From assembly GCA_937899725.1 (NCBI GenBank), contig CALCCA010000147.1:1-53185 (forward strand): 53,185 nt of DNA, given 5' to 3'. A program made the translations under genes and the position numbers. Below are positions 4,404-19,675 of the stretch, one piece after another. How positions within the stretch are numbered: the first letter of the stretch is position 1; the number at the start of each line of letters is the position of its first letter. Source of the DNA: an uncultured Halomicronema sp. Lineage in GTDB: Bacteria; Cyanobacteriota; Cyanobacteriia; Phormidesmidales; Phormidesmidaceae. The notes beneath the pieces were generated by a model. It was not told where the DNA came from. It did no database searches and worked only from the letters and a program-made list of their open reading frames with translations.

Positions 4404-4489
4404 CACCCACAAGCTAGGGGTGTCCGACTTGATCGGGCTGAGATTATACCCTCAGAACCTGACCTGGTTAATACCAGCGGAGGGAAGCG
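4404..4489 (+). promoter_or_regulatory. TPP riboswitch (THI element)
   Basis: The conserved aptamer blocks appear in order: CTAGGGGTG near 4414-4422, GGGCTGAGA at 4435-4443, then CAGAACCTGACCTGGTTAAT and ACCAGCGGAGGGAAG up to 4487. These match the thiamine pyrophosphate aptamer core (family knowledge). It precedes a symporter gene and thiC. No classic poly-U terminator follows, so the switch may act at translation; a hairpin at 4694-4713 could hide the GAGG of the symporter. Confidence 0.95.
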
Positions 4490-4693
4490 TTGATTGCGGT
4501 TACGAAACCAAAGCGACGAGCGAACTTATGAATTCCGAAGCGGGGATGCGGCAGTTGGTAAGCCGAGTTAGCCCTGTTTTGAAATTTCAGATTCCCAGCT
4601 CTGGGCTCGGAATTCTCGCGTTCGTCTCATCACGTTTCAGATTCCATCGCTTCATCAACAAACCTGCAGGTTAATCATCGCCTCTAGCATCTT

Positions 4694-4720: not shown

Positions 4721-6223
4721 ATGACAATTGATACAGCGGCGTTGATGGCGACGCTGGGGACATTGGTGATTTTTACTGGGTTTGGTCTGCTGCAGGCCCG
4801 ACACCGAGAAATCACGCTGGAAGATTATATGGTGAGCCGCAATCGCATTGGCACAGGGGCGGCACTGGCCACCATTGTGGCCTCGGCAATGGGCGCGTGG
4901 ATTTTGTTCAGCCCACCAGAAATTGGTGCCACCAGCGGCCTGGCGGGCATTGTCGGCTACTGCCTTGGACAGGCCACCCCGTCTGCCATGTTTGCAGTGA
5001 TGGGGCCGCGCATTCGGTTTCTAATGCCGCGAGGACATTCGCTCAATGAGTATGTGCTGCATCGCTTTGGCAATGCGATGTACTTGCTGACGCTCGGCAT
5101 CATCGTGTTTTACATGTTTGTGTATTTGACGGCGGAGCTGACGGCGATCGCTAAAGCCGTCGAACTGATGGCCGGCGTGCCCCTCTGGCTGACGGCCCTG
5201 CTGGTGATCACAGCGGTCTTCGTCTACACCACCGTTGGCGGGCTGGCCGCGACCATCTTTACCGATACCATTCAGTTTGCGGTGATTGTGCCGCTGCTGC
5301 TGCTGAGTTTTGCCATTGCGATCGCCGCGTTAGGGGGTTGGGGCAGGGCGATCGCCCCGGTGGCCGAAGCCGCCCCGCAATTATTAACCTTGGCCAACGG
5401 CCCTGGCATTAAGTTTGGGGCGACGTTGGTGATTGCCGTGATTGCGGCAGAAATGTTTAACCAGGCCAACTGGCAACGCATCTATGCCTGCAAAAACGAT
5501 GTCGTGGTGCGGCGATCGTTCCTCGGCTCGTTTTTGTTCATTTTGCCGATTTTATTCATCTCCGGACTGCTCGGCATTTTGGCCATGCACTTTGGCTTTA
5601 ACGACGATCGCGCCTTCTTCTCACTGATTCAAGCCTTAGGGCTACCGGGTTGGCTCAGCATCGCCGTGCTGGTGTTGGTGTTGGCTCTGGTGATGAGCAG
5701 CTTAGACACGTTGCTAAACGGCATTGCCAGCGTGTTTACCACCGACTTGCTGCGGCTCTTTCCCACGATGCGATCCAGCGGCATTTTGCGCGCCGCCCGG
5801 GGGCTCACGATTGCCTTGGGTATCCCGGTTGTGCTCATTGCCGCCCAGGGCTACAACGTGCTGTACCTGTTTTTGCTAGCGGATCTGGTGTGTGCCGGGG
5901 CGCTGTTTCCCGTGCTGTTTGGCCTCTATTCTCGTCGGCTGACGGGGGCGATCGCCTTCTGGAGTTCCCTGATGGGCATTGGAGCCGGCGCTCTCTTTTT
6001 TCCCAAACCGGACTTTAGCCCGTGGACGGGAGTCCCTTTTGCTGGAGATCTGCTGGTCAGCTTTGCCGTGCCTATTGGGGTGTCGGCGCTAATTTGTGGC
6101 ATCTGGATTCAGCTCAAAGCACAGCAGGGCAAAACTGAGGCGTTCGATTTCCAGCGCCTAGACACCGAGATCCGGGCGTATGGCGAAGCAGCACCCATGC
6201 CAGCCGCGAAGAACACGAACTGA
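4721..6223 (+). CDS. Sodium:solute symporter (ThiV-like), riboswitch-linked
   Basis: This 500-residue inner-membrane protein has about 13 hydrophobic segments and belongs to the SSS family (PanF/PutP-like). Supporting pieces are GFGLLQARHREITLEDYMVSR at the start split by a short loop, YTTVGGLAATIFTDTIQF near residue 170, and VMSSLDTLLNGIASVFTTDL near residue 330. Because the TPP riboswitch lies just upstream and thiC follows 104 bases downstream, the likely cargo is thiamin or a pyrimidine/thiazole precursor. A comparable riboswitch-controlled symporter was called ThiV in comparative genomics. The exact substrate is inference. Confidence 0.85.
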   Translation: MTIDTAALMATLGTLVIFTGFGLLQARHREITLEDYMVSRNRIGTGAALATIVASAMGAWILFSPPEIGATSGLAGIVGYCLGQATPSAMFAVMGPRIRFLMPRGHSLNEYVLHRFGNAMYLLTLGIIVFYMFVYLTAELTAIAKAVELMAGVPLWLTALLVITAVFVYTTVGGLAATIFTDTIQFAVIVPLLLLSFAIAIAALGGWGRAIAPVAEAAPQLLTLANGPGIKFGATLVIAVIAAEMFNQANWQRIYACKNDVVVRRSFLGSFLFILPILFISGLLGILAMHFGFNDDRAFFSLIQALGLPGWLSIAVLVLVLALVMSSLDTLLNGIASVFTTDLLRLFPTMRSSGILRAARGLTIALGIPVVLIAAQGYNVLYLFLLADLVCAGALFPVLFGLYSRRLTGAIAFWSSLMGIGAGALFFPKPDFSPWTGVPFAGDLLVSFAVPIGVSALICGIWIQLKAQQGKTEAFDFQRLDTEIRAYGEAAPMPAAKNTN

Positions 6224-6282: not shown

Positions 6283-7713
<1,431 letters not shown>

Positions 7714-7867: not shown

Positions 7868-9466
7868 CTAGCTCAGCTGCACAACGGGCTGGTTGGTGAG
7901 CAGGGTATCGCCAGTGAGGATGTCTTCAACGGTGAGGCGGAGCGTGCGATCACGATCGACCTCAAACAGTACGCGAATGCGATCGCTGCCGGGCACGCCC
8001 AGCGGTGCTAGTTGGGCGATCGTGCGGCCACTGCCAGTGTCATTGAGCGGCTGCACCTGTTGCGCCGCCTGAGCTGACTGGCGGGTGATCAGGCGATCGC
8101 CTTCAAAAAAGACTTCGGTGGTAGTGAGATCGGCTTCGTTGCCGAGTTCACCAATCACCAACTCAATGCTGGGCTGATTGTCGGTCGAGGCACCCAGCAC
8201 AATTTCGACCGGCTCAGTGGATGGATAGGGTTGCCCCGACCGGATAATCGGCTGCCAACTATGACGACGATGGCGGCGATCCCAATAGCGAATGCCGTAG
8301 CTGTGGTAAAGAAAGTCGGTGAGTTCGATGCCCTGCTGCACCTGCAGCGCCCCCTCGGCCACGGCGGTAAAGGGGCGATCACTCCGAATTTTTTCGGCGT
8401 CAAAGTGGCTCGCCAGCCAACTCTGCACAGCAGGAATTTGCGCCGTCCCCCCCACCAGCAGCACGGCATCGATATCGACCAGGCTGAGTCCCTGCCGCCG
8501 CATTTGCTGAAAAATTTGTCCTAAACAGCCTTCTAATCGATCGAAAAACTGATTATTTTTCAAAATGTCTTCAAACGTAGCGCGATCGAGCTTCAGCGTC
8601 AGGCTTTCCAGCGTTTCATCATCAAAGAAGCTCTCAGTTGCCTGCGATTTGTCCGAAAGTTGAATCTTGAGTCGCTCGACTAGCCGCTGGGTTAACGGAC
8701 TGAGGGGAATGCCTTGCTGCCGGTGAAAATAATCGGCTAGCCAGTTATCAATGTCTGCCCCACCCAAGTTTTCGCCTGCCTTAGCCAATACCTTAGCCCG
8801 CTGTGGCTTTTGGGCAGAAGAGTCGGCCAGGGGCTGATTGCCCCAGCGCAAAATAAAGCCGAGCGGCTTGCGGTTGGGGGCGATCGCCAGATCCACCAGC
8901 GAAAAGTCCAGAGTGCCGCCACCAAAGTCAACAACCAGAACGGTTTCGGATTGACGAATGCCATAGCCTAGTGCCGCAGCGGTGGGCTCATCCAACAGGC
9001 GCACCTCAGGTAGATCCAGCGTCGCCCCGGTCTCGCTGAGCCAGTGACGATAGACCTCAAAACTATCGACCGGCACGGTGAACACAACGGAGTCCACCGC
9101 TTCGCCCGACGCCTTAATCGCCCGCAGCACATCGGCTAAGAACCAGCTGCCAATTTGCTCGAAGGAAAGGGCACAACCATCCAGCTCGGGCAAAAAACCT
9201 TGAATCGCTGTGCCGATACCCCGTTTGAAATTGCGGTAGAAACGATTGTCAGCACTGACGTCAAGGCCGCTGTCCCGCACCGGCTGACCAGCTTGAATCG
9301 TGCCCTTAGCCGCATTTTCGACATAGACCAGCGACGGCACCAAGGGCGGATTTTTACCGAGCTGCTGCGCCAAAGGCGGGAGCGCAATTGCTTCGGGTGC
9401 TTGGGTGGCACTGTTCCAGCGAGTGACGACGGTGTTGCTGGTACCAAAATCGATAGCAAGGGTCAT
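7868..9466 (-). CDS. Hsp70-family (DnaK-like) protein
   Basis: The 532-residue protein opens MTLAIDFGTSNTVVTRW, the first phosphate loop of the actin/Hsp70 ATPase fold. Further motifs are LLDEPTAAALGYG near residue 165, VVDFGGGTLDFSLVDL near residue 183, and LLVGGTAQIPAVQSWL near residue 340. After the ATPase domain there is only a short beta-rich tail, so the full DnaK lid and the EEVD-like end are missing. Such shortened Hsp70 homologues are common in cyanobacteria and act without a fixed J-protein partner in the locus. I start at 9466 because the 28 residues before it carry no family similarity. Client is unknown. Confidence 0.9.
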   Translation of the reverse strand: MTLAIDFGTSNTVVTRWNSATQAPEAIALPPLAQQLGKNPPLVPSLVYVENAAKGTIQAGQPVRDSGLDVSADNRFYRNFKRGIGTAIQGFLPELDGCALSFEQIGSWFLADVLRAIKASGEAVDSVVFTVPVDSFEVYRHWLSETGATLDLPEVRLLDEPTAAALGYGIRQSETVLVVDFGGGTLDFSLVDLAIAPNRKPLGFILRWGNQPLADSSAQKPQRAKVLAKAGENLGGADIDNWLADYFHRQQGIPLSPLTQRLVERLKIQLSDKSQATESFFDDETLESLTLKLDRATFEDILKNNQFFDRLEGCLGQIFQQMRRQGLSLVDIDAVLLVGGTAQIPAVQSWLASHFDAEKIRSDRPFTAVAEGALQVQQGIELTDFLYHSYGIRYWDRRHRRHSWQPIIRSGQPYPSTEPVEIVLGASTDNQPSIELVIGELGNEADLTTTEVFFEGDRLITRQSAQAAQQVQPLNDTGSGRTIAQLAPLGVPGSDRIRVLFEVDRDRTLRLTVEDILTGDTLLTNQPVVQLS

Positions 9467-9608
9467 AGTGGGCGATCGCTTACAAAATAGCCTGATGAAA
9501 GCAAGTTGCTTAAACGTAGCGCCTCGATCACGAGTGCCTGGCATTGCCAAACCCTGTCCGAAGGTACCGCTGCGAGACCTTCATTAACGCATCTCGACCG
9601 GACGGGGA

Positions 9609-10442
9609 TCAAGAGGCCGGAGGCGGCGTGGCACTGAGAATGCGATCGCAAAAAAATAGCGTTCCTGCCGCGACACAGAGCGGAATGGCTAGCAGATTCA
9701 TCAGGGGAATACTAAACAGCCCCAGGCACACCAGCGCAAAACTGCCACTCGCCGGGAGCGCCCGAAACACGATGCCCAGCTTTTGCCGAAACTTGAGTCG
9801 CCGTCGTTCTAACGGTGCATCAAACATATCCAGGCAGACTAACAGCGATGCCAGGGTAATGCCCCCAATGGTGGCTACCAGCGTGCCCACGCCCGGAATC
9901 AAGTTGCCAAGCAGCAGGGGTAACCCAATTGCTGCCAGCAACAGCAGTTTCTTGAGTTCAAACATGAGGGCGCGCCAGATATCGATCACAATCGCCCCGG
10001 CTCCCATCGACGGCGGCGCGTCGAGCTTACCCGCCTGCAAAATCTCAATCTTTTCCGACAGCTGCCCATAAAACGGTGAGCCCAAAATGCCGCCAAACTG
10101 CAGCAGCACCAAGCCTAAAACCACCAGCAAGACCACAATCAAGCCGCCCTGAATTACAGGACTGAGGAATTCGATCACGGTATCGAGCCAGGCCGGGCCC
10201 ACCCAGTTGATGAGCTGCTGAGTCCAGCGGTTAACTAGCTTGAGGCCGCTCCAAATGCCGAGTGAATACAGCACTCCCCCCAGCAGAATGTTGATGACCA
10301 GCGGCCCGATGACGTAGGGCCAAAGCGACTTGTGTTTTTGAAACAAGCGCAAGGCCCGGAGCGGGTAGCTAAAGCCCAGCAAGAGTCCTGGCAAGCCGCC
10401 ACCACGAGGCTTTAAACGTTTGCTCGCGTCGAGTTTCGTCAT
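9609..10442 (-). CDS. EI24 domain (CysZ-like) membrane protein
   Basis: This 277-residue protein has four to five long hydrophobic segments and the phrase GFSYPLRALRLFQKHKSLWPY near the N-terminus, split here as family-typical (FxxG..ha..L..p.LW.y). That arrangement fits the EI24/CysZ family of inner-membrane proteins; CysZ moves sulphate in enterobacteria, but cyanobacterial members are not characterised, so no substrate is claimed. The start at 10442 is an ATG; the ORF can extend six codons to a TTG. It is on the same strand as the Hsp70-like gene, with about 140 bases between, so co-transcription is possible. Confidence 0.75.
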   Translation of the reverse strand: MTKLDASKRLKPRGGGLPGLLLGFSYPLRALRLFQKHKSLWPYVIGPLVINILLGGVLYSLGIWSGLKLVNRWTQQLINWVGPAWLDTVIEFLSPVIQGGLIVVLLVVLGLVLLQFGGILGSPFYGQLSEKIEILQAGKLDAPPSMGAGAIVIDIWRALMFELKKLLLLAAIGLPLLLGNLIPGVGTLVATIGGITLASLLVCLDMFDAPLERRRLKFRQKLGIVFRALPASGSFALVCLGLFSIPLMNLLAIPLCVAAGTLFFCDRILSATPPPAS

Positions 10443-10541
10443 AGAAAGCGGTGCTGACAACTTTATTCATATTGCCCTGAGTTGGCGAGTTTGGCGGGGC
10501 TAGTCGTCCGGATTTGGGTGGGGTTTCCCGAAGAAGGGACT

Positions 10542-10751
10542 ATGTCGACTTTGGCCAACGACTCTATGAAAGTATTTGTCATGAGCGCGCTGACTTGTGC
10601 GATCGCTGGTGTCTTGGGCGTTCCTGCCACCGGGGCGATCACTCCAGATACCGCTGCGGTTGAACAGCTTGATCAACCTGAACTGCTCAGCAGCAGCTAT
10701 ATCTATCGGCGCTACACCGGGGGTACTGGCCGCCGCGAAATTTTGTCTTAG
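10542..10751 (+). CDS. Small secreted protein, PatX-like candidate
   Basis: A 69-residue protein starting at ATG 10542 (preceded by GAAGGG); a second in-frame ATG at 10566 gives MKVFVMSALTCAIAGVLG, a clear signal peptide ending near ATGA. The mature part is about 40 residues and ends YTGGTGRREILS. This layout, signal peptide plus a short tail ending in an (x)GTGRRE block, resembles PatX, the secreted precursor of an RG(S/T)GR peptide that inhibits HetR in filamentous cyanobacteria. The critical pentapeptide here reads GGTGR rather than RGTGR, so it is either a divergent PatX or another family. It is divergent from the EI24 gene. Confidence 0.5.
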   Translation: MSTLANDSMKVFVMSALTCAIAGVLGVPATGAITPDTAAVEQLDQPELLSSSYIYRRYTGGTGRREILS

Positions 10752-13787: not shown

Positions 13788-15410
13788 TTGTTCGACATTT
13801 CACTAAAAGGTCAAGAAATCGTGGTTGATGCTGCCCCGAACACAACTAAAAAGCTCAACAAGTTTGAAAGATTCAAGGCCGACAAGGATGGCCTGGCAGT
13901 CAAGTCGGAACTCGAAAAATTTGCTGAGATGGGGTGGGAAGCGGTTGATGAAACGGATCTAACTCACCGACTGAAGTGGTTAGGGATCTTTTTTCGCCCC
14001 GTTACGCCTGGCAAGTTCATGCTGCGCATGCGGCTGCCCAACGGTATTTTGTCCAGTCAAAAAATGCGGGTATTAGCCGAGGTGGTGCAGCGCTACGGCG
14101 ATGATGGCAGTGCCGACATCACAACGCGCCAAAATCTACAGCTGCGAGGCATTCGGTTGGAGGATATCCCTGACATCTTTCAGCGATTTGAGGCCGTCGG
14201 GCTGACCTCCATTCAGTCGGGGATGGATAACGTTCGCAATATTACAGGTTCTCCGGTGGCAGGTATTGACGCCAGCGAGCTGATTGACACTCGCGGCTTA
14301 GTGAAAAAGCTGCAGGACATGATTACCAACCGCAGCGCTGGAAACCCAGAATTCACCAACCTGCCGCGCAAGTTCAACATTGCGGTAGAAGGGGGGCGTG
14401 ACAATGCCGTGCACGCTGAAATTAACGACATTGCCTTTGTGCCCGCCTATCGAGATGGTCAGCTTGGATTCAACGTTTTGGTAGGGGGCTTTTTCTCGGC
14501 TCGCCGTTGCGAAGCCGCTGTGCCCTTGAATGCTTGGGTCGAGCCGAATGATGATGTGGTAGCGCTATCGCGGGCCATTTTAGAGGTGTATCGCGACAAC
14601 GGCCTGCGGGTCAATCGGCAAAAGTCACGGCTGATGTGGCTCATTGACGAATGGGGCATGGAGCAGTTTCGGGCTGAAGTCGAAAAGGCCTATGGCAAGC
14701 CCTTTCTCAGTGCGGCTCCGAAGGATGAGATCGACTGGGAGAAGCGCGATCACGTCGGCATTTACCCCCAGCAGCAGCCGGGGTTGAACTATGCCGGACT
14801 GCACGTGCCGGTGGGTCGATTAAGTGCCCGTGACATGTTTGATGTGGCGCGCCTTGCCGACGTCTATGGCGAGGGCGAGATTCGCCTCACGGTCGAGCAA
14901 AGCATCATCATTCCGTACATTCCCGATTCGCGGCTGGAATTGTTGCAGCAGGAAGATTTGCTGGAGCGCTTTTCGCTTGAGCCGAGTCCGCTGGTGCGAT
15001 CGCTCGTCTCTTGCACGGGCGCTCAGTTTTGTAACTTTGCCCTGGTGGAGACGAAGCAGCGGGCTTTGGCGATCGCCCGGCAGCTAGATGCCACCTTGTC
15101 AGTGCCCCAGCCCGTGCGCATTCATTGGACGGGCTGCCCCAACTCTTGCGGCCAGCCGCAGGTGGCTGACATTGGCCTGATGGGCACCAAGGTGCGTAAA
15201 GATGGCAAGCCCGCTGAAGGGGTTGACATCTACATGGGCGGCAAGGTGGGCAAAGATGCGCAGCTTGGCACCTGCGTGCAAAAAGGCGTGCCCTGTGATG
15301 AGCTGCCAGAGATTTTAGCGGGGCTGTTGACGGAGCGCTTTGCCGCGCAGCCCCGTACTGATTTTTCGACACCCAGCAATGGCCATGTGCAAATTGCGGT
15401 AGACGAATAA
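13788..15410 (+). CDS. nirA: Ferredoxin-nitrite reductase
   Basis: NirA reduces nitrite to ammonium with six electrons from reduced ferredoxin. The 540-residue protein has two sulphite/nitrite reductase half-domains, and the four Cys that hold the 4Fe-4S cluster and sirohaem are present: Cys409 and Cys415 in CTGAQFC, Cys450 and Cys454 in GCPNSC. KLNKFERFKADKDGLAVKSE near residue 22 is the usual cyanobacterial opening, broken here to stay short. The start appears to be TTG at 13788, since an in-frame stop lies eight codons upstream and the next Met is too far inside. It leads the nitrate cluster, with nrtP 148 bases downstream. Confidence 0.96.
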   Translation: MFDISLKGQEIVVDAAPNTTKKLNKFERFKADKDGLAVKSELEKFAEMGWEAVDETDLTHRLKWLGIFFRPVTPGKFMLRMRLPNGILSSQKMRVLAEVVQRYGDDGSADITTRQNLQLRGIRLEDIPDIFQRFEAVGLTSIQSGMDNVRNITGSPVAGIDASELIDTRGLVKKLQDMITNRSAGNPEFTNLPRKFNIAVEGGRDNAVHAEINDIAFVPAYRDGQLGFNVLVGGFFSARRCEAAVPLNAWVEPNDDVVALSRAILEVYRDNGLRVNRQKSRLMWLIDEWGMEQFRAEVEKAYGKPFLSAAPKDEIDWEKRDHVGIYPQQQPGLNYAGLHVPVGRLSARDMFDVARLADVYGEGEIRLTVEQSIIIPYIPDSRLELLQQEDLLERFSLEPSPLVRSLVSCTGAQFCNFALVETKQRALAIARQLDATLSVPQPVRIHWTGCPNSCGQPQVADIGLMGTKVRKDGKPAEGVDIYMGGKVGKDAQLGTCVQKGVPCDELPEILAGLLTERFAAQPRTDFSTPSNGHVQIAVDE

Positions 15411-15454
15411 GGCTTTGGGCAGGGCTAACTTTTCGACACCCTGACCCATCGAAG

Positions 15455-15523
15455 ACTCCCATATCACGTGGGGGAGTGTTGTCAACAGAAAAAAACCTTG
15501 CGAGCTAGCACTCACAAAGGTTT
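15455..15523 (+). terminator. Two hairpins between nirA and nrtP
   Basis: ACTCCC at 15455-15460 pairs with GGGAGT at 15472-15477. AAACCTT at 15493-15499 pairs with AAGGTTT at 15517-15523, with a further short inner stem (GAG/CTC). The second ends in TTT. They may attenuate or stabilise the transcript so that nirA and nrtP are expressed at different levels. Confidence 0.45.
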
Positions 15524-15558
15524 GAGTCGTTTCTTGGTTCATTAGGAGATTAGCACAG

Positions 15559-17184
15559 ATGCTTGTTGAGTTGTTTACTAGAGCAACTCAGGGCAGGTAC
15601 AAAGTATTACACCTGACCTGGTTTGCCTTCTTTCTAACGTTTGTTGTTTGGTTCAACTTTGCACCGTTTGCCACCACAATTGCTCAAGACTTTGGCCTAG
15701 AGCCCGCCCAGGTGGGGACAATTGGCCTTTGCAACTTGGCCCTGACGGTACCAGCCCGCGTCATCATTGGCATGATTTTGGACAAGTATGGGCCGCGTCT
15801 GACTTACTCTTGCTTGCTGATTTATGCCGCGATTCCCTGTCTTATCTTTGCGACCGCTCAGAGCTTCAATCAGCTCGTGCTGGGTCGCTTGCTGATGGGC
15901 ATTGTGGGGGCAGGTTTTGTGATTGGCATTCGCATGACGGCTGAGTGGTTCCCACCAAAGGAAGTCGGCACGGCAGAAGGCATCTACGGCGGCTGGGGGA
16001 ACTTTGGTTCTGCCTTCTCCGCCTTCACTATGGTCATTTTTGCGCTGGCCTTGACGGCTCTACCGGGCGCTTTCCAGTTTCCGGAGGCTGAGACGTTTCG
16101 CGTTCTCGTATTTCCGCCCTTCCAGACTGACGTGTTGAACTGGCGCGCTGCGATCGCCGGTAGCGGTATTGTGGCTGCTTGTTACGGTGTGTTCTATTAC
16201 TTCAACGTCACCGATACGCCTCCTGGCAAAGTCTATCAGCGCCCCGAGAGCGCTCGCGGCATGGAAGTCACTTCCGTACGCGACTTCTGGTTCCTGATGG
16301 CGATGAATTTGCCCCTCACCCTGATTCTGATGGTGTTGGCTTGGCGTTTGCAAAAAGTCAACTTCCTCACGTCGGGCGGCATGTATCTCGCTTGTGTGTT
16401 GCTGCTAGGGCTCTATGCTTTCCAAGCCTACAACTGCTGGAGTGTGAATAAAGAGCTACTCGCTGGGACCAAGACCTATTCGCCCGCAGAGCGCTATCGC
16501 TTTAAGCAAGTGGCGATGCTAGAGCTGACCTACATCGTTAACTTTGGTTCGGAGATTGCCGTTGTCACGATGCTGCCCGCCTTTTTTGAAGGCACCTTTG
16601 GCCTTGACAAGGCGACTGCGGGTTTGGTGGCGGCGAGCTACGCGTTTATGAACTTGGCTTCGCGTCCGGGGGGTGGTCTCATTTCCGACAAAATGGGCAG
16701 CCGCAAGTGGACGATGGTCATTCTGACGGCCGGTATGGGTATCGGCTACATGATGATGGGCACGGTCAACAGTGCCTGGCCCCTGCCGCTAGCCGTGTTG
16801 CTGACGATGGCCTGCTCTTTCTTTGTGCAGTCTTCTGAGGGCGCTACCTTTGCCATGGTGCCGCTGGTGAAGCGCCGCATCACCGGACAGATTGCCGGTA
16901 ACGTGGGTGCTTACGGCAACGTGGGCGCAGTGGCCTACCTGAGTATTCGCCTGTTATTCGTTGATGGTTCAGCGGCGGCGAACGCGGGTACGCCGGTGAT
17001 GGCTGCGGTCAACTCGCAATTCTTTCAAGTGTTAGGCATTGCGGGTTTGGTCGTCGCCTTCCTTTGCGTCTTCTTCTTGGATGAGCCGCAGGGTTCCTTC
17101 GCTGACTTCCATGAGGGCGAAGAGCCTGATTTGGTCACCCATCCGACAGCACTGCCCAATGAGCAGTCGGCTCGTTTGCTATAA
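15559..17184 (+). CDS. nrtP: Nitrate/nitrite transporter, NNP family
   Basis: A 541-residue major facilitator protein with 12 hydrophobic segments that imports nitrate (and nitrite) across the inner membrane. Two nitrate-signature Gly-rich stretches are visible: GWGNFGSAFSAF near residue 147 and GNVGAYGNVGAV near residue 450. Between helices there is a long central loop, and the C-terminus is acidic. This single-component permease replaces the NrtABCD ABC system used by many freshwater strains, as in several marine or mat-forming cyanobacteria. The start is fixed by AGGAG 14 bases before the ATG. A terminator at 17243-17289 follows it. Confidence 0.93.
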   Translation: MLVELFTRATQGRYKVLHLTWFAFFLTFVVWFNFAPFATTIAQDFGLEPAQVGTIGLCNLALTVPARVIIGMILDKYGPRLTYSCLLIYAAIPCLIFATAQSFNQLVLGRLLMGIVGAGFVIGIRMTAEWFPPKEVGTAEGIYGGWGNFGSAFSAFTMVIFALALTALPGAFQFPEAETFRVLVFPPFQTDVLNWRAAIAGSGIVAACYGVFYYFNVTDTPPGKVYQRPESARGMEVTSVRDFWFLMAMNLPLTLILMVLAWRLQKVNFLTSGGMYLACVLLLGLYAFQAYNCWSVNKELLAGTKTYSPAERYRFKQVAMLELTYIVNFGSEIAVVTMLPAFFEGTFGLDKATAGLVAASYAFMNLASRPGGGLISDKMGSRKWTMVILTAGMGIGYMMMGTVNSAWPLPLAVLLTMACSFFVQSSEGATFAMVPLVKRRITGQIAGNVGAYGNVGAVAYLSIRLLFVDGSAAANAGTPVMAAVNSQFFQVLGIAGLVVAFLCVFFLDEPQGSFADFHEGEEPDLVTHPTALPNEQSARLL

Positions 17185-17242
17185 CGAACCGTTCGATTTG
17201 GGGGGAAGCTTTTCTCGAGTTTCCCTTCAACCATCAGACAGT

Positions 17243-17289
17243 AGTCGGGGGATACATTCCATTGATCTGGAGGTGTCTCCCGACTTTTC
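17243..17289 (+). terminator. Intrinsic terminator after nrtP
   Basis: Bases 17243-17255 pair with 17273-17285 over 13 positions, including two G-T pairs, around a 17-base loop; TTTT follows directly. It is the clearest rho-independent terminator in the nitrate cluster and suggests that narB has its own promoter or depends on read-through. Confidence 0.75.
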
Positions 17290-17470
17290 TCCAATAAAGA
17301 CGATCAATTCAATACTGCTCACCGGATTCAGATCCTGGAAACTCATGCAATGTCAGTCTGATCTGGACTGGCATCACACCGCATTTTTCATTTGGATCAT
17401 CATCCAGATAGCGTTCTTACACCGTCGAAACTTGTCTGATATTGTCGCGATCGCACAAAGGTAAGCCATC

Positions 17471-19675
17471 ATGACATCCACCAAAACTCTGTGCCCCTAT
17501 TGCGGTGTTGGTTGTGGCCTGGAGGTCTCACCCACCAAGTCAAAAAAAGCCCCTGCAGACAGTGATTGGACGGTGCGTGGCGATCGCGCTCATCCATCAA
17601 GTCAGGGCATGGTGTGTGTCAAAGGGGCCACGATTGCCGAGGCGATCGATAAAAACCGGCTGCTGTATCCGCTCATGCGGGCGTCATTAGATGAGCCTTT
17701 TCGGCGGGTGAGTTGGGAGGAAGCGCTAACGGCGATCGCTGATCGCATTCGCCATGTCGTCGCTACCCAGGGGCCAGAAGCCGTCTGTATGTACGGATCA
17801 GGTCAGCTCCAAACCGAAGACTATTACACCGCCCAAAAGCTGTTGAAGGGCTGCTTAGGCACTAACAATTTTGATGCTAACTCGCGTCTGTGCATGTCTT
17901 CTGCCGTCGCTGCCTACATTCAAAGCTTTGGCTCCGATGGGCCGCCCCCTTGCTACGACGATTTAGAAAACACCGACTGTGCCTTTTTGATTGGCACCAA
18001 CACCGCTGAGTGTCATCCCATCGTGTTCAACCGGTTGCGTAAATATCACCGCAAAAAGCGCGGCAAAGTCAAGCTGATTGTCGTCGATCCGCGCCGGACG
18101 GAAACGGCCAAGGATGCAGATTTGCATTTGGCGATTCGTCCTGGTACTGACATTACGTTGATGAACGGGATTGCTCATATTCTGCTGCGACAGCGGTGGA
18201 TTGATGCCATGTTCATCGACGAAGCCACGAAGGATTTCCAAGCCTACGCCGAGGTGATTCGCCACTATCCGCCCGAGCGGGTGGCCGAGGTCTGCGGCAT
18301 CACGGTCAAAGATTTAGAAGAGGCAGCCCGTTGGTGGGGCTTGTCTAAAAGTGTGTTGTCGCTCTGGTCGATGGGGATTAATCAATCCTCTGAGGGCACG
18401 GCCAAAGCTCGTACGCTAATCAACCTGCACCTCATGACCGGACAAATTGGCAAACCCGGTGCGGGTCCCTTTTCGCTGACGGGTCAGCCCAACGCCATGG
18501 GCGGCCGAGAGGCTGGGGGATTAGCTCACATTCTGCCGGGCTATCGCTTGGTCAAAAATCCGGAGCATCGCCGGGCGGTGGAGCAGGCTTGGCAATTACC
18601 CGCTGGCAGCATTTCACCTACGCCCGGCTTAGCGGCTTGGGACATGATGGTGGGCCTAGAGCAGGGTGCGGTGGGCCTATTTTGGGTGGCTGCGACGAAT
18701 CCGGCTGTGAGCATGCCCGATATTGAGCGCACCAAAGCCGCCCTGCGGCGATCTCCCTTTACCGTTTATCAAGACGCCTACTATCCCACCGAAACTGCCG
18801 AATATGCCCACGTCTTGCTGCCCGCTGCCCAGTGGGGCGAAAAAACTGGCATCATGACGAATTCGGAGCGCACGGTCACCCTGTGCCCCGCATTTCAACC
18901 TCGGCCCGGTGAAACCCGCGCCGATTGGGAAATTTTTGCCGAGGTGGGCCGACGGCTGGGATTTGAGCAACAGTTTGCCTGGCAGTCAGCGGCTGAGGTG
19001 TATGACGAGTTTGTGCAGCTGACCGCCGGTCGCGTTTGCGATATGACTGGCCTCAGCCACGATCGCCTCGCTGCTGGCCCCATCCAATGGCCTTGCCCTC
19101 AGCAGGAAACCGCACAGACGGCCTGGAACAAGTATGACAAGCGCCTCTACGCTGATCATCACTTTCCGACGCCCAATGGTCGCGCCAACTTTGCCGCCTT
19201 TCATGAAGGCGGTTTGGCGGAGCTGCCGGATACCGACTTCCCCTTTGTGCTGACCAATGGTCGGCTGTATGGCCACTGGCACACCCAAACCCGCACGGGC
19301 CGCATCGATAAAATTCGCAAAATGCACCCCGAACCATTGCTAGAGATGAATCCCCTTGATGCGCAGCGGCTGCAGCTGCAGTCGGGCGATTGGGTCGAGG
19401 TGCGATCGCGCCGGGGAGCGGCCTGCCTCAAGCTCCTCGTCACCCAGTACATTCGCAAAGGGGTGCTCTTTATCCCCATGCATTGGGGGGCGCTATGGGC
19501 TGATCAGGCGGAATGTAATGCGCTCACGCACGCTGCCGTTTGCCCCATTTCTCTGCAGCCAGAACTCAAAGCCAGTGCGGTCGCAGTCGTGCCCTTAACC
19601 GCAGAGATGAGAGTGGCGGTGATGTCAGGAGAGCAGCACGATCTCGGGCTGGTGGGAGTCGCGCGCGATCAGTAA
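17471..19675 (+). CDS. narB: Ferredoxin-nitrate reductase
   Basis: NarB reduces nitrate to nitrite with electrons from ferredoxin; it is a molybdopterin (bis-MGD) enzyme of the cytoplasm. The 734-residue protein opens with the 4Fe-4S motif at Cys8, Cys11, Cys15 and Cys49 (CPYCGVGC and GMVCVKG). Downstream are cofactor stretches such as [24 protein letters not shown] and [15 protein letters not shown] near residue 595. The ATG follows AAAGG by about nine bases. The length matches cyanobacterial NarB. narM follows about 240 bases later. No clear NtcA box was found directly upstream. Confidence 0.96.

Follow-up and report, generated by a model that had tools for sequence, protein, structure and literature searches.

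A PatX-lineage peptide precursor with GGTGR in place of RGTGR is encoded apart from hetR in a cyanobacterial genome

Results

A short gene follows a DIF1 motif

The window, i.e. the whole 53,185-nt stretch of DNA analysed here, is contig C147 of a 6.99-Mb assembly (G000). On its plus strand, an open frame at 10542-10751 encodes a hydrophobic N-terminus followed by a tail, RRYTGGTGRREILS, the C-terminal end of the product being YIYRRYTGGTGRREILS. The original prediction had likened this architecture (an open frame, a hydrophobic N-terminus and a GTGR tail) to that of PatX, and all three elements are indeed there. The features of the locus are as follows:

7868-9550, minus strand: Hsp70-like protein gene (PF00012, 104 bits), a synteny marker
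9609-10460, minus strand: EI24/CysZ-like membrane protein gene (PF07264, 117 bits), the divergent neighbour and a synteny marker
10507-10512, plus strand: palindromic DIF1 motif TCCGGA, at -59 from the ATG at 10566
10566-10751, plus strand: PatX-lineage secreted peptide precursor, probably of 61 aa; the frame originally predicted opens at the in-frame ATG 10542
10566-10637, plus strand: probable Sec signal peptide MKVFVMSALTCAIAGVLGVPATGA, placed by hydrophobicity, with a presumed cleavage site
10707-10748, plus strand: conserved C-terminal block RRYTGGTGRREILS, identical to that of G003 with nine of 14 codons synonymously changed
10719-10733, plus strand: GGTGR, placed by motif position and alignment, where orthologues have RGTGR

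The open frame is a genuine gene. When 59 genomes were searched at the protein level, each of the five further genomes of the genus gave a match (E 7e-40 to 3e-6), and genomes beyond the genus gave weaker ones. All five genus matches adjoin the same EI24/CysZ-like and Hsp70-like genes; these shared neighbours, the genus-wide matches and the constant spacing of a DIF1-type element lie beyond chance. The start is probably the ATG at 10566 and not that at 10542, which would yield a 61-aa secreted precursor, since the homologues align from the former Met and since DIF1 at 10507 sets the transcription start close to ATG 10542. The N-terminus has the hydrophobicity of a Sec signal, the best 15-residue Kyte-Doolittle mean before the motif being 2.36.

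The upstream element recurs at a conserved spacing. At the locus of the window gene (locus A), TCCGGA lies at -53 to -61 in ten of 11 genes, and the remaining one, in G003, has TCCTGA at -57. Motif-bearing profile matches from other families carry the element at -57 to -62 in 11 of 11 cases (eight TCCGGA, three TCCTGA), and in 18 of the 27 open frames found with the PatX model a Met lies 54 to 66 nt downstream of TCCGGA. The PatX definition of Elhai and Khudyakov from 2018 reportedly includes a DIF1 motif within about 69 nt upstream, and the window gene, with TCCGGA at -59, has it. From the motif and its conserved spacing, the promoter of the window gene appears to be of the DIF1 type; in Anabaena patS, DIF1 is described 35 bp upstream of the transcription start (PMC7377430). 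A further box, AT(A/C)TTGCC, is found upstream of DIF1 (window 10469-10476); in eight of the ten locus-A genes tested its position is -96 to -109 relative to the start, and it could go with either patX or the divergent EI24 gene.

Downstream of the gene, nitrite reductase, MFS transporter and molybdopterin oxidoreductase genes follow in a row (window 13788-19675), which, on our reading of the names, we take to be probably nirA-nrtP-narB. Linkage to nitrate assimilation was considered and dropped, as nirA had no match in the 13-20 kb regions of G001, G003, G004, G005, G011 and G012; it is in the same place in the near-identical G002, and thus the neighbourhood is conserved no further than the closest relative. 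Elsewhere in the window, a TPP riboswitch (4406-4502, 72 bits) stands ahead of a sodium:solute symporter gene (4721-6223), which is why the symporter is perhaps a thiamine-related transporter; the open frame at 6316, after the symporter gene, is presumably thiC-like, again named by reading.

The gene belongs to the PatX lineage

The profile search against PatX that the original prediction had proposed came back empty: the NCBIfam model NF047413 did not match the window protein up to E 10, nor did it match any of eight homologues. The link to the curated model is instead indirect. Homology to accepted PatX runs through same-locus orthologues with RGTGR and through an open frame in G109, which both the family profile (36 bits) and NF047413 (29.0 bits, slightly below its cut-off of 30) pick up. 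Family members went into building the family profile and necessarily score high with it; in a class sample the profile gave matches at E 0.01 or better in 29 of 291 genomes, 27 of which show a motif-bearing open frame. HetR_C (PF18460) is present in 27/27 of these motif-confirmed genomes vs 149/291 overall.

Like PatX (NF047413; Nostoc asl2332), the window gene encodes a small secreted precursor with a hydrophobic N-terminus in a genome with hetR; in many PatX members, likewise, Arg-Glu or Lys-Glu comes directly after a motif close to the C-terminus, and TCCGGA stands about 60 nt upstream. It differs from PatX in that it has GGTGR at 10719-10733 and not RG(S/T)GR, in giving no NF047413 match and in not being the only PatX-type gene of its genome. 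Since it lacks the defining RG(S/T)GR, we call it PatX-lineage and not PatX sensu stricto. The naming of such genes varies: a Mastigocladus PatX orthologue appears as 'alternative PatS' in PMC7761841.

The first arginine is often replaced at the unlinked loci

As the original prediction had it, the first Arg of the pentapeptide is Gly in the window protein. Close relatives of the gene in named records come from an uncultured Halomicronema sp. MAG (G002, 98% identical protein) and from Oscillatoria sp. CS-180 (G003, 54%). The EI24/CysZ-like and Hsp70-like neighbours are common to G001, G002, G003, G004, G005, G012, G015, G021 and G027, and in G011 some 7 kb separate the EI24 gene from the unlinked PatX-type gene. 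Judged by locus and alignment, the window gene is the orthologue of genes with an intact YRGTGRR in three sister species: G001, G004 and G005 have YIYRGTGRRQIL (YRGTGRRQIL). G011, G015, G021 and G027 have RGTGRRE, with a second RGSGR in the unlinked genes of G021 and G027, and G000, G002, G003 and G012 have GGTGRREILS. These seven Arg-bearing genes resemble the window gene in promoter element, hydrophobic N-terminus, C-terminal GTGRR(E/Q) and locus, and differ from it in keeping the first Arg. The residue before G(S/T)GR at locus A is therefore Gly in four of 11 genes and Arg in seven.

At a second locus, B, comprising G008 and genus g12 (n=17), the residue is Ser in ten genes, Arg in five, and Gly and Pro in one each. 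We are less sure that these genes are homologous to those of locus A. With profile A1, which holds no locus-B rows, G008 had an E-value of 5e-4 and G082 and G064 values of about 0.005; profile A2 includes these three as rows, which biases its g12 E-values in favour of a match. None of ten g12 genes tested has TCC(G/T)GA near -60 (in G065, TCCGGA lies at -20). In G008 the contig offers just 19 nt ahead of the locus-B gene, and no EI24 or Hsp70 match was found at L069, L106 and L107. With both loci counted, 16 of 28 unlinked family genes have another residue in place of the first Arg, and 12 of these 16 are at locus B; leaving locus B aside, the figure is four of 11, all Gly. G(S/T)GR itself is kept in 28/28. 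The search left 35 of 63 family genomes without a motif-bearing unlinked member, a count in which small or fast-changing genes can be missed.

Elsewhere the first Arg is constant. Precursors linked to hetR at 20 family loci have it in 68/68 G(S/T)GR copies (a TSGIGR string in L041, which does not fit G(S/T)GR, lies outside the 68). Outside the family it is present in 38/38 PatX-type open frames, made up of 11 profile matches (L135 and L136, which have no motif-bearing frame, had already been dropped) and 27 PatX-model loci. The latter come from 30 (L157-L186), of which 28 were tallied after L179 (the same frame as L124) and L182 (no motif-bearing frame) had been set aside, and one of these, L172, gave no frame. 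A full-text literature search for GGTGR with PatX or PatS gave no paper with GGTGR among the matches listed.

In the alignment, YIYR-GTGRR of the sister species stands against YIYR-RYTG-GTGRR of the window protein, the first Arg being displaced. Because GGTGR is common to G000/G002, G003 and G012, we considered one old loss followed by a return in G001/G004/G005; on these sequences, such a history would be at least as parsimonious as separate losses. A 12-base deletion joining YIYR to GTGR would give the return. In HetR trees G012 adjoins the window genus, and the placement of G003 differs between two trees.

The C-terminal block bears marks of constraint. G000 and G003 share their last 14 residues exactly, although nine of 14 codons and ten of 42 bases differ, all synonymously. 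When ten changes were placed at random, 0/400,000 trials kept all 14 residues, in a control that ignores mutation and codon bias. Synonymous-only change in this block speaks against decay, and suggests that GGTGR is not a product of decay and that the gene is still under purifying selection.

An intact multi-motif precursor adjoins hetR

The presence of hetR, which the original prediction had called for, is borne out: G000 has two HetR_C genes, and HetR proper (L001), the regulator of cell differentiation that such peptides restrain, matches the NCBIfam HetR equivalog at 534 bits. Absence of hetR together with homologues lacking GTGR had been named as grounds for giving up the PatX assignment; hetR is there, and the homologues keep GTGR or GSGR. 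On contig C75, a 117-aa secreted-type open frame (L001:99-452) ends 373 bases before hetR and carries four intact RG(S/T)GR copies (HRGSGR, YRGTGR, HRGSGR, YRGSGR); it scores 21.9 bits with the NCBIfam PatX model, below the cut-off of 30, and has a DIF1-like TCCTGA at -62. This precursor is like the window gene in being of secreted type and in its DIF1-like element, and unlike it in its four intact motifs, in having no RREIL tail and in lying upstream of hetR. The window gene is thus the second PatX-type gene of the genome, unlinked to hetR. The original prediction is partly borne out: the PatX-like architecture stands, but the gene is not the only one of its type here, and, given the intact four-motif precursor, the GGTGR gene alone is no proof of altered or lost HetR signalling.

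Precursors of this kind are common. Two to four motif copies near hetR were found at 20 of 21 family loci scanned. Ten of 30 hetR loci (L028, L029, L032, L033, L034, L038, L040, L048, L049, L051) had no multi-motif open frame in the stretch read; L051 (G008) is the one family locus among them, none is among the 20 loci of the 68/68 count, and the single motifs at L028, L029, L032, L038 and L048 have the first Arg. TCCTGA, one base off DIF1, lies at -60 to -65 in 12/12 hetR-linked loci tested (L087-L099 without L095), so this DIF1 variant may be general upstream of hetR-linked precursors. The scan took in nine of the 16 genomes with a replaced Arg: eight (G000, G002, G003, G012, G016, G028, G032, G035) have a hetR-linked precursor, and in G008 the stretch around hetR (L051) has none.

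In the structure of the HetR hood with PatS6, both peptide Arg residues bond Glu253 and Asp270'/Asp278'; E253A abolished binding of PatS6, and D270A and D278A raised the Kd from 12 to 2252 and 1626 nM, respectively, according to PMC4649674. By alignment, with residue numbers counted by hand from the 4hri chain, HetR of G000 keeps all six pocket residues (Arg223, Glu253, Glu254, Asp256, Asp270, Asp278). We therefore rejected a pocket change in HetR that would compensate for the lost Arg. As that Arg would contact Glu253, Asp270' and Asp278', all of them kept, (T)GGTGR is expected to bind HetR more weakly than RGTGR.

On contig C16 of the same genome, a nifH-model match (L189, TIGR01287) scores 463 bits against a cut-off of 394, which three of 14 control genomes pass too; the organism may fix nitrogen.

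A second HetR-like protein has a different pocket

The second HetR-like protein (L002:1477-2430, minus strand), which scores 344 bits against Anabaena HetR, retains five of the six residues (Arg223, Glu253, Asp256, Asp270, Asp278), Glu254 being Val, again with numbering by hand. Its pocket thus reads EVFD vs EELD, and EVFD recurs in 19 of 21 regions read (G000 and L137-L156), the exceptions being G014 (EAFD) and the second copy of G008 (ETLT). By eye, the second-HetR pockets showed no pattern between GGTGR and RGTGR genomes. A PatX-type gene beside the second HetR was sought in 21 short regions, most of them about 2 to 3 kb long, and not found; the one GGTGR string, in L137, belongs to an unrelated frame. 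Among 36 family genomes, at least two HetR_C genes occur in 17/17 with an unlinked PatX-type gene vs 5/19 without one; of the 11 genomes outside the family that carry such a gene, nine have just one HetR_C gene.

Discussion

Anabaena PatS and HetN are sources of the HetR-inhibiting RGSGR peptide, PatS as a 17-aa peptide and HetN as a larger protein with an inner RGSGR, forms in which both differ from the precursor of the window gene. We consider it probable, though by no means assured, that the gene encodes a diverged PatX signal with weakened HetR binding, and that the hetR-linked precursor supplies HetR inhibition. It would be driven from the DIF1-type promoter and its product, to go by hydrophobicity, would be exported and cut outside the cytoplasm, releasing a short mature peptide around (T)GGTGR or GTGRREIL. 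The model for this processing is Nostoc PatX, which is described as exported and cut by PatP to yield HRGTGR, with a Kd of 88 nM for HetR (PMC12756182). Lacking the first Arg, the peptide would bind HetR much more weakly than RGTGR does; strong inhibition of HetR would be the job of the four-motif precursor, leaving the window gene, still held by purifying selection, as a second signal that is weak or received in another way. If RGTGR in G001, G004 and G005 is a return, HetR binding may matter there.

Other readings have to be weighed against this one. The gene could be an ordinary PatX whose peptide is still an adequate inhibitor of HetR: binding would rest mainly on the second Arg, the Thr and strand pairing through the backbone, and variation in the first position would be tolerated; the intact HetR pocket of G000, GTGR or GSGR in 28/28 family genes and the DIF1-type element in 11/11 locus-A genes all fit. 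We nevertheless think it unlikely, as both Arg residues of PatS6 contact Glu253/Asp270'/Asp278' and the pocket mutants lose affinity in the account of PMC4649674, and as the first Arg is invariant in the 68 hetR-linked copies and in the 38 open frames outside the family. Conversely, a PatX made redundant by the four-copy precursor could have lost its Arg by relaxed constraint: the multi-copy precursor exists, the motif varies at locus A within the genus, and the unlinked member was not found in more than half of the family genomes (35/63), small or fast-changing genes being missable there. Such decay is very doubtful in view of the synonymous-only changes in the 14-residue block, the frame and DIF1-type element kept in all 11 locus-A genes, and the sharing of GGTGR by two genera that are neighbours in the HetR trees.

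A dedicated ligand for the second HetR-like protein is a further candidate, the pocket of that protein being EVFD and not EELD, with Val for Glu254, the residue that holds the peptide N-terminus. It would account for the co-occurrence of at least two HetR_C genes with the unlinked gene (17/17 vs 5/19), and it agrees with the other five pocket residues kept in G000 and with the near-constancy of EVFD (19/21 regions). Shared ancestry can yield the same association, however; EVFD is alike in RGTGR and GGTGR genomes and so does not explain the loss of Arg; nine of 11 genomes outside the family make do with a single HetR_C gene; and the short stretches around the 21 second HetR genes hold no PatX-type open frame. 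All told, we regard this ligand as quite improbable.

To return to the diverged signal, a four-copy precursor in the same genome as a conserved, motif-altered second gene suggests one signalling peptide split into two. Taken to its full extent, which we would bet against, this would be a split of the PatX-HetR channel, in this lineage of filamentous cyanobacteria, into a hetR-linked multi-copy precursor that keeps the HetR-binding motif and an unlinked, orthogonal, DIF1-controlled signal received elsewhere, perhaps by the second HetR-like protein. There is precedent for a PatX that works apart from HetR: in Leptolyngbya BL0902 the effects of a hetR-linked patX are called 'basically independent of HetR' (PMC11298460). 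An unlinked second PatX, if one was left in place there, may bear on the HetR-independent look of the patX deletion in that strain. A conserved PatX without its first Arg and an intact multi-copy PatX in one genome form a ready-made natural pair for asking which part of the peptide signals, and whether HetR is its only receptor.
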